Shown here in pieces: positions 17,247 through 37,912 of a stretch of 38,022 nt of DNA. The stretch spans positions 1 to 38,022 of the forward strand of contig JAKAUR010000034.1 in NCBI GenBank assembly GCA_021827665.1, written 5' to 3'. Under the pieces are notes generated by a model. The model did not search any database. It saw nothing but the letters and a program-made list of their open reading frames with translations, and was not told the DNA's origin. How positions within the stretch are numbered: position 1 is the first letter of the stretch; each line of letters opens with the position of its first letter. The stretch is from Microcaldota archaeon. Its GTDB lineage: Archaea > Micrarchaeota > Micrarchaeia > Micrarchaeales > Micrarchaeaceae. A program made the translations under genes and the position numbers.

Positions 17247-17347
17247 CGCCGGGGGTGGGAATCGAACCCACGAAGGCCTTTCAGCCAAACAGCTTAGCAG
17301 GCTGCCGCCCTTTAGAGTGCTTGCGCATACCTCTAGGCGACCCCGGC
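17247..17347 (-). tRNA. tRNA-Ser (anticodon GCU) with an intron in the D-loop
   Basis: Class II tRNA: acceptor GCCGGGG/CCCCGGC, D stem GCCT/GGGC, anticodon stem GCAGC/GCTGT around CTGCTAA (anticodon GCT), long variable arm with a GGCT-GAAA-GGCC hairpin, T arm GTGGG-TTCGATT-CCCAC, discriminator G, CCA not encoded. The D-loop is 24 nt and contains a 17-nt intron; removal leaves the standard 7-nt loop AGAGGTA. The mature length is 84 nt. It needs splicing by the archaeal tRNA endonuclease and CCA addition. Its own TATA box lies 26-33 bases upstream. Confidence 0.93.
17312..17328 (-). other. Predicted non-canonical tRNA-Ser intron (17 nt, D-loop, ~20/21)
   Basis: In the pre-tRNA the D arm folds as outer helix GCCT/GGGC, 3' bulge AAA, 4-bp central helix AGAG/CTCT, 5' bulge GTA and inner helix TGC/GCA closed by a GCAA tetraloop. 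That is an exact bulge-helix-bulge. Cutting after the second base of each bulge gives this intron and the mature loop A-G-A-G-G-T-A with A14, G15, G18, G19 and A21 in place. Confidence 0.85.
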
Positions 17348-17384: not shown

Positions 17385-17652
17385 AGCGGCGGAAGCCGGC
17401 CTTGCCATGCAAGCAGCAGTTGCGTTGACCATACTTCAGCTCAGCCCCGTATCCCGGGAGCGTAGCCTGAATGTGCTTAAGGTTGCTCCTTCCGGCCTGG
17501 CCTGGTTCACGCACCAAGCTACCACCTGGGGCAAGGCATCAACGCTTCCATCTGGGCGCAAAAGCCGCTTGCATAACGCAACCGGCATTGGCCCGCCAGA
17601 AAGGGATTTGCGAACGGGAAACCCTTAGCTTCCCGGCCTATCCGCCAAGGCT
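17385..17652 (-). ncRNA. Signal recognition particle (7S) RNA
   Basis: The diagnostic SRP54-binding helix 8 is present at 17481-17515 (minus strand: GTGAACCAGGCCAGGCC, then GGAAGGAGCAACC with the GGAA-type apical loop). The ends pair (GGCGGA near 17646 with TCCGCC near 17388, plus GCCGG/CCGGC), forming the closing helix 5 / helix 1 region. A 5' Alu-like part with AAGGG...CCCTT follows. At about 265 nt it is somewhat shorter than the usual ~300-nt archaeal RNA; ends are approximate to a few bases. It directs SecY-dependent targeting, and secY is also in this window. The plus-strand ORFs 17407-17674 are artefacts. Confidence 0.88.
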
Positions 17653-36523: not shown

Positions 36524-37324
36524 ATGGCATTGGCGCAGCTGAGCACTAAAAAGGAGGATACCAAGTACAAGCAGAAGCTGGAGTTCATAGATGCGCACTG
36601 CCATCCGGACTTTCTCAGCGATGAGGAGCTGGATATTGCAAACGGGCACGGGGTCACAGCGCTGGTGGTCAACGGCGTTGACACGAAGTCGAACATGTCA
36701 ATAATTGGAGAAAGATGGCGCTCAGGGGTTTTCGCGGCGTTGGGCATACATCCCGAAAACGCTCTGAAAATGGCAGATGAAGAGATTGATTATAACATAA
36801 GCCTGATAAGGGCAAATGCAAAGGGCATATCCGCAATCGGCGAAATAGGACTGGATTACAAATTTGCAAGCAGCGAAAAAGACAGGGAAAGGCAGAAAGA
36901 GACCTTTAAGAAGTTCGTAAACCTTGCGATAGAGCTTGACAAGCCTGCCAGTGTCCATTCCAGGGACGCGCTTGACGACGCTTTGGAGATCCTAGGCTCG
37001 TCAGGGATAAAGAAGGCCCATATACACTTTTTCGAGGGTGACGGGGCTCAGGCTGAAAGGGTTGCCAAAATGGGCTTCATGGTTTCTGTGCCGCCCATGC
37101 ACTCTGCAAAAAGAATGGCGGCAATTGAATCGATACCGATATCAAACATAATGGCAGAGACAGATTCGCCCACTGCTGGGATGCACGTTTACGACATTGA
37201 CAAGTCAATAATGCTGATAGCCAAAGCGAAGGGCATGGATTTTGAGAGCTGCGCCGTGGCGGTAGCGGACAATACGAAAAGGTTCTTTAATATTGGCGTG
37301 CACAATCTAATTCGACGGATTTAA
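36524..37324 (+). CDS. tatD: TatD-family metal-dependent hydrolase
   Basis: The 266-aa TIM-barrel protein has the metal ligands of the family: FIDAHCHPDF, ALGIHPENA, AIGEIGLDYKF, SVHSRDA, HFFEGDG and MAETDSPTA. TatD proteins are 3'-5' DNA exonucleases or RNA-trimming enzymes in other organisms. ATG 36524 is taken; ~20 residues precede the first motif. The TAA stop is directly followed by the first base of tRNA-Arg. Confidence 0.93.
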   Translation: MALAQLSTKKEDTKYKQKLEFIDAHCHPDFLSDEELDIANGHGVTALVVNGVDTKSNMSIIGERWRSGVFAALGIHPENALKMADEEIDYNISLIRANAKGISAIGEIGLDYKFASSEKDRERQKETFKKFVNLAIELDKPASVHSRDALDDALEILGSSGIKKAHIHFFEGDGAQAERVAKMGFMVSVPPMHSAKRMAAIESIPISNIMAETDSPTAGMHVYDIDKSIMLIAKAKGMDFESCAVAVADNTKRFFNIGVHNLIRRI

Positions 37325-37431
37325 GGGCCCGTAGCTCAGCTTGGACAGAGCAGCAGCCTTCTAAGCTGATGGTCGCGGGTTCAAAATAAGTTTAGCGGTT
37401 CGCTAATGCTATGAAATTCCCGCCGGGCCCG
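37325..37431 (+). tRNA. tRNA-Arg (anticodon UCU) with an intron in the T-loop
   Basis: Cloverleaf: acceptor GGGCCCG/CGGGCCC, D stem GCTC/GAGC with loop AGCTTGGACA, anticodon stem GCAGC/GCTGA (one G-A mismatch at the top) around CTTCTAA (anticodon TCT at 37360-37362), variable TGGTC, T stem GCGGG/CCCGC, discriminator G, CCA not encoded. The T-loop is interrupted by 32 nt; removing them leaves the canonical TTCAAAT. The mature length is 75 nt. There is no spacer for a separate promoter after tatD. Confidence 0.93.
37386..37417 (+). other. Predicted non-canonical tRNA-Arg intron (32 nt, position 59/60)
   Basis: The fold is outer helix GCGGG/CCCGC, 3' bulge ATT, 4-bp central helix TTCA/TGAA, 5' bulge AAA, and an inner stem ending in TTAGCG-GTT-CGCTAA. 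Cutting after the second base of each bulge joins TTCAAA to T, giving TTCAAAT. Confidence 0.85.
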
Positions 37432-37849
37432 AATCCGCGCTTTCTTTTTGGCCTCTTCCTCCTCTTTTGTCCTGCTTTCCCTGCTTCGCGTTAACGAACT
37501 CTATCGAGAGGTCCTCATCCGACGGCGTCTCCATCCATGCCTTTATGTACGAAGCTATGTTCCTGAGCGGCTTCGAATACCTGTCGGTCAGCTCGTATAT
37601 GGAATTTTCGTGCTTAAGCAGCCCCAACTGAACTGCATAATCAAGATACCTCTTTGCGGTGGCAATTGGTATGCCTTCAGGCACGTCTTTGAGCCTTAGG
37701 CCGGACTTTTTGGCCATGCTAAGGAGCGTGGCGAACCTGTATGCCTCTGTTTCGTTTTCGAAGAATATCCTTGCAATGTCTGCGACCTTTGGGCTTTTGA
37801 CCTTCTCCCTGAAGGGCGCATCCTCGAATTCCCAGTATTTTATCGCCAT
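37409..37849 (-). CDS. Winged-helix DNA-binding protein
   Basis: The ~146-aa protein starts at ATG 37849, which has GGAGGT 5 nt upstream; the ORF-track start at 37867 lacks one. Residues ~25-95 form a winged helix: FATLLSMAKKSGLRLKDVPEGIPIATAKRYLDYAVQLGLLKHENSIYELT. A helical segment and a basic Gly/Arg/Gln-rich tail follow (KQDKRGGRGQKES). Its last ~7 codons and stop lie within the convergent tRNA-Arg gene. Confidence 0.7.
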   Translation of the reverse strand: MAIKYWEFEDAPFREKVKSPKVADIARIFFENETEAYRFATLLSMAKKSGLRLKDVPEGIPIATAKRYLDYAVQLGLLKHENSIYELTDRYSKPLRNIASYIKAWMETPSDEDLSIEFVNAKQGKQDKRGGRGQKESADSGPAGIS

Positions 37850-37912
37850 TTTTACCTCCGCATACATATTGGATTATAAGCATATATTTTTATCCGTGGA
37901 ACTGTTTGCACC

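Follow-up and report, generated by a model that had tools for sequence, protein, structure and literature searches.

A 32-nt insert in the T-loop of a tRNA-Arg(UCU) gene, in the last kilobase of the window (the 38,022-nucleotide stretch analyzed here, from a Micrarchaeum relative of the ARMAN-2 lineage), is almost certainly a real intron of the bulge-helix-bulge (BHB) type, cut by an epsilon2 endonuclease and followed by joining of the exons by RtcB. We favor this reading because the pairing register of the insert is conserved, because inserts occupy the same site in relatives, and because the genome carries genes for an epsilon2 endonuclease and for RtcB. Cleavage, ligation and the exact cut sites in vivo are what we infer from these comparisons. 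Coordinates are collected in Table 1.

Table 1. Interrupted tRNA genes and predicted splicing elements, with positions in the window unless a locus set is given
Feature	Position	Strand	Description	Basis
tRNA-Arg(UCU) gene	37325-37431	+	107 nt with insert	
5' exon of tRNA-Arg(UCU)	37325..37385	+	3' end TTCAAA (positions 54-59)	
Central helix, exon strand	37380..37383	+	TTCA, 4-bp helix	register test
5' bulge	37384..37386	+	AAA, predicted cut after 37385	sequence; spliced product restores TTCAAAT
Intron of tRNA-Arg(UCU)	37386..37417	+	32 nt, position 59/60	
Central helix, intron strand	37412..37415	+	TGAA	TGAA/TGGA/TGAG/TGGG in 68/74 distinct introns
3' bulge	37416..37418	+	ATT, predicted cut after 37417	sequence; spliced product restores TTCAAAT
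3' exon of tRNA-Arg(UCU)	37418..37431	+	T60, 3' strand of T stem, acceptor 3' strand, discriminator G	
tRNA-Ser(GCU) gene	17247-17347	-		missed by ARAGORN unless spliced
D-loop intron of tRNA-Ser(GCU)	17312..17328	-	17 nt	ARAGORN: tRNA-Ser(gct) when spliced, not when unspliced
T-loop intron of tRNA-Arg(UCG)	L073/L078/L080 set		34 nt	ARAGORN call after in silico splicing
T-loop intron of tRNA-Arg(CCU)	L073/L078/L080 set		21 nt	ARAGORN call after in silico splicing
T-loop intron of tRNA-Leu(CAA)	L073/L078/L080 set		18 nt	ARAGORN call after in silico splicing

The first base of tRNA-Arg(UCU) directly follows the stop codon of a TatD-family gene (36524-37324, Pfam PF01026). The acceptor stem (GGGCCCG/CGGGCCC), the anticodon arm with its UCU and the 5-bp T stem (GCGGG/CCCGC) are intact, and the T-loop has 39 bases instead of 7. 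A preliminary description had placed an intron here at position 59/60 and predicted ends that restore TTCAAAT; its coordinates are exact, and the spliced product has this very loop. Given the junction sequences, no cut other than 59/60 yields TTCAAAT, and a slide of one base gives another loop. ARAGORN calls the spliced 75-mer as tRNA-Arg(tct) and makes no tRNA call on the unspliced gene, from which the Rfam tRNA model likewise omits the T arm. The insert thus interrupts a tRNA gene, and its exact removal restores a normal tRNA. A minus-strand ORF of 152 aa (37409-37867), with no Pfam match, runs antisense across the 3' exon; its stop codon falls within the intron, and both the open frame and the stop in the intron are found at six loci of the genus.

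The central helix and the two bulges lie at the places given in the preliminary description, inside the T stem, and together they span both exon-intron junctions. We examined their register in 74 distinct inserts at 59/60, from tRNA-Arg(UCU) and a few CCU and UCG paralogues; these are related by descent and do not count as independent trials or events. All four pairs with the exon TTCA are formed at the predicted register in 68 of them, the pairing bases being TGAA (49), TGGA (11), TGAG (7) or TGGG (1), each of which pairs completely with TTCA; the other six form three of the four pairs. Departures from TGAA are mostly A-to-G changes that preserve U-G pairing. When the register is displaced by 1-3 nt, complete pairing is found in 0-1 of the 74, and shuffled introns give a complete central helix in 1.9% of cases. 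On these counts the pairing is not chance, and drift would not preserve this one register alone.

The assignment to the BHB type rests on this conserved register rather than on minimum-energy folding. The preferred fold of the isolated T arm plus intron (-15.3 kcal/mol) leaves the bases of the central helix unpaired, so the minimum-energy structure alone does not reveal the motif; forcing the helix costs 0.9 kcal/mol, and its pair probability is about 15%. On the exon side the T stem is strong. Next to the 5' bulge the intron-side helix is weak, with at most 2 bp, and a 5/1-nt loop is left beside that bulge on the intron side when the central helix is forced. For this reason the modeled structure is not certain to be a strict BHB, in which each side of the bulges is bordered by a stable outer helix. 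Some relatives (L055, L052, L117, L156) have very short 59/60 introns of 12-13 nt, just long enough to fit the central helix plus a small loop. In the 12-nt introns (L055) the central helix closes directly on a loop of about 8 bases, which leaves no room for an intron-side helix; judged from their sequence, these shortest introns must therefore be relaxed bulge-helix-loop substrates, a class reportedly cut by epsilon2 enzymes (PMC12397907, PMC6379350, PMC4033280).

The endonuclease catalytic domain has a single match in the window's genome, a 392-aa EndA protein; among solved structures, its best relative is the epsilon2 enzyme of ARMAN-2 (E 1.1e-167; 64% identical to 4fz2/9w2k). The bulge-binding, catalytic and ASL residues of the latter are described for structure 9W2K (PMC12397907). 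Alignment to 4fz2 shows that the catalytic triad Y236/H251/K282 is kept, together with the bulge-binding residues R275/W384 and the ASL residues Y160/K161. The protein is a single fused chain of the epsilon2 length (about 390 aa), and the same genome encodes, beside this endonuclease with its triad, the tRNA ligase RtcB. On the reading favored here, the pre-tRNA would fold into the T stem GCGGG/CCCGC, beyond which exon UUCA pairs with intron UGAA over 4 bp, flanked by two bulges of 3 nt. Each bulge would be cut after its second base by the endonuclease, which in ARMAN-2 is a homodimer and whose ARMAN-specific loop would let it tolerate the weak intron-side structure, and RtcB would ligate the exons into a normal UUCAAAU T-loop.

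The intron at 59/60 is not peculiar to the window's genome but, on sequence comparison, an order-wide feature. Genes for tRNA-Arg(UCU) across the order were gathered by DNA similarity and pattern, and the loci were read and tallied by hand. Among 94 parsed genomes, an insert is found precisely at 59/60 in 72 (32 genera), and the other 22 (13 genera) show an unbroken, perfect TTCAAAT loop; genera g9 and g33 include genomes of both kinds. The insertion point after TTCAAA is identical for every insert in the order. Outside the order, tRNA-Arg(UCU) is interrupted at the same point in at least one genus (g59) from another family of the class. Two species, one with the intron (L067) and one without (L068), have near-identical tRNA exons and share their flanks: a TatD gene (65% identical) and, both upstream and downstream, ORFs that resemble each other. 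The preliminary description had proposed comparison with relatives as a check, unrelated sequence at the site being taken as a sign of assembly error; the insert-free relatives show the exact uninterrupted tRNA.

These comparisons bear on two other ways of explaining the insert. It could be a permanent extension of the T-loop kept in the mature tRNA, since it is able to fold a hairpin of its own and the stems of the cloverleaf are present on both flanks. However, the inserts vary in length from 12 to 43 nt and are free in sequence except for the four bases that pair with TTCA, and close relatives lack them exactly. The T-loop, moreover, is required for contact with the D-loop and for modification, which we count against an extension; this explanation is highly improbable. 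The gene could also be a pseudogene, or the product of a sequencing or assembly error, with a functional copy elsewhere in a genome that is an 852-kb draft, 87% complete. Yet dozens of independent assemblies have inserts at the same site, among them the complete genome of Candidatus Micrarchaeum sp. A_DKE, whose intron there differs from the window's by two bases. A_DKE and other Micrarchaeota assemblies share the TatD gene and the adjacent tRNA with the window. A second tRNA-Arg(UCU) was found neither in this draft, by the Rfam tRNA search, nor in the single-contig relative G002, and the exons are perfectly paired and conserved. We give this explanation practically no credence. Retention in the mature tRNA, a pseudogene and an assembly error were thus all rejected on comparative evidence.

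The interruption of tRNA-Arg(UCU) has company in the same DNA. The preliminary description held that two of the three tRNAs of the window have non-canonical introns, with the same BHB geometry and cut rule, and took this as a sign of a widespread system rather than of sequence error. All of this has stood. The D-loop intron of tRNA-Ser(GCU) has an AGAG/CTCT central helix of the same geometry as that of tRNA-Arg(UCU), and the third tRNA, tRNA-Lys, is uninterrupted. The position, the boundaries, the BHB register and the cut rule all find backing in relatives, those that carry the insert as well as those that lack it, and in the gene for the epsilon2 endonuclease; same-site inserts, intron-free orthologues and this gene likewise speak against error. 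The gene for tRNA-Ser(GCU) lies near an SRP RNA gene (17386-17648, minus strand). A census by Rfam search and inspection of each gene gave 41 tRNA matches in the draft genome, 25 uninterrupted and 16 interrupted, the latter divided equally between eight at or near 37/38 and eight elsewhere. Four tRNAs, Arg(UCU), Arg(UCG), Arg(CCU) and Leu(CAA), have T-loop introns; in tRNA-Leu(CAA) a cut at 58/59 or at 59/60 is possible.

Relatives of the window's genome also harbor a dispersed hairpin repeat. Its 28-nt core, ACTTCTTNNNAAGAAGTTTNATCAAGAA, consists of a 9-bp hairpin, counting two leading A's, plus a tail; the 164 genomes searched contain 57 copies, distributed over 48 of them, and no match to the reversed control. 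Placement was assigned by reading of the loci (L021, L147/L196, L183-L239). Tallied in this way, 24 of the 57 copies lie within tRNA introns of several isotypes: tRNAs for Thr, Arg, Gly, Ile, Ala and Phe have the repeat in introns of the 37/38 region, and G049 has it in the 59/60 intron of tRNA-Arg(UCU) itself. At four loci (L206, L207, L222, L215) the T-loop of tRNA-Arg(UCU) is uninterrupted and the repeat is carried by an anticodon-loop intron of the 37/38 region. Eleven copies follow a complete tRNA-Ala and eight a tRNA-Ala 3'-end fragment, two come directly after the mature 3' ends of 16S and 23S rRNA, six are grouped as a conserved-looking locus and six are elsewhere. The tRNA-Ala fragments (ending in GAGTCCAYAAA) are followed by the repeat and in several cases by a further conserved stretch (L187, L188, L190, L193, L194, L201, L216); from their sequence they look like duplicated attachment sites of an integrating element. 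The conserved locus with the repeat (L208, L221, L224, L225, L232) has a non-coding appearance, and L208, the one of these that was scanned, gave no Rfam match. The window's genome has a copy outside the window (G000:C40:270-297).

The presence of the repeat at 59/60 in G049 and at other sites suggests that intron mobility is possible, and the repeat may be a mobile intron or a processing element; beside mature 3' ends, a role as an integration site and a role in RNA processing are equally open. The same copies could be taken to mean that the window's insert is itself a recent mobile-element insertion whose removal is merely incidental. But the window's intron is not a member of the repeat and has no dispersed copies, its sequence being confined to the one orthologous site, where four genomes of the genus have it; moreover, all eight members of the genus examined have an intron at the site, with diverging sequences. 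A recent insertion is therefore very unlikely. More broadly, one might speculate, quite tentatively, that the tRNA-Arg 59/60 site is a hot spot of intron gain, loss and replacement across the order, partly because the ACTTCTTNNNAAGAAGTTTNATCAAGAA repeat moves between genes for stable RNAs, entering tRNA introns at various positions as well as the 3' flanks of tRNA-Ala, 16S and 23S rRNA. If true, this would amount to a mobile tRNA-intron family in Micrarchaeota.

The class of intron, position 59/60 and the enzyme have all been published; what is new is this one species' intron and the spread of such introns through the order. The 59/60 position is among the known non-canonical positions of archaeal tRNA introns, and the introns described there share the insertion point and have splice sites in BHB or relaxed BHB motifs (Yoshihisa 2014, PMC4090602). 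In that account Crenarchaeota and Nanoarchaeota are the rich sources, whereas here the intron is an order-wide feature of one Micrarchaeota tRNA. As summarized in PMC6379350 and PMC4033280, ARMAN-1 and ARMAN-2 have multiple tRNA introns and a broad-specificity epsilon2 endonuclease (Fujishima 2011, Hirata 2012); the lineage, the enzyme type and the broad range of substrates and intron positions are the same, but the species is different from ARMAN-2, since the endonucleases are only 64% identical. Because 59/60 introns and the epsilon2 class had already been described, the T-loop intron is less surprising than the preliminary description took it to be. Transposition of tRNA introns is reported for Thermoproteales (Fujishima 2010, as cited in PMC4033280), and the ACTTCTTNNNAAGAAGTTTNATCAAGAA repeat is a similar case, in that introns of different tRNAs and at different positions resemble one another in sequence; in contrast, the window's own 59/60 intron is without transposed copies, and the repeat beside mature 3' ends is left unexplained by this parallel.

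For annotation the finding carries a warning, namely that ARAGORN misses such genes and a genome may seem to be without essential tRNAs. For the biology of the group it provides a natural series: one tRNA and one insertion point, insert lengths from 12 to 43 nt, and sister species that lack the intron, in a lineage for which an RNA-bound endonuclease structure has been solved. Such a series lets the minimum structure for the epsilon2 enzyme, and the coming and going of tRNA introns, be tested directly.
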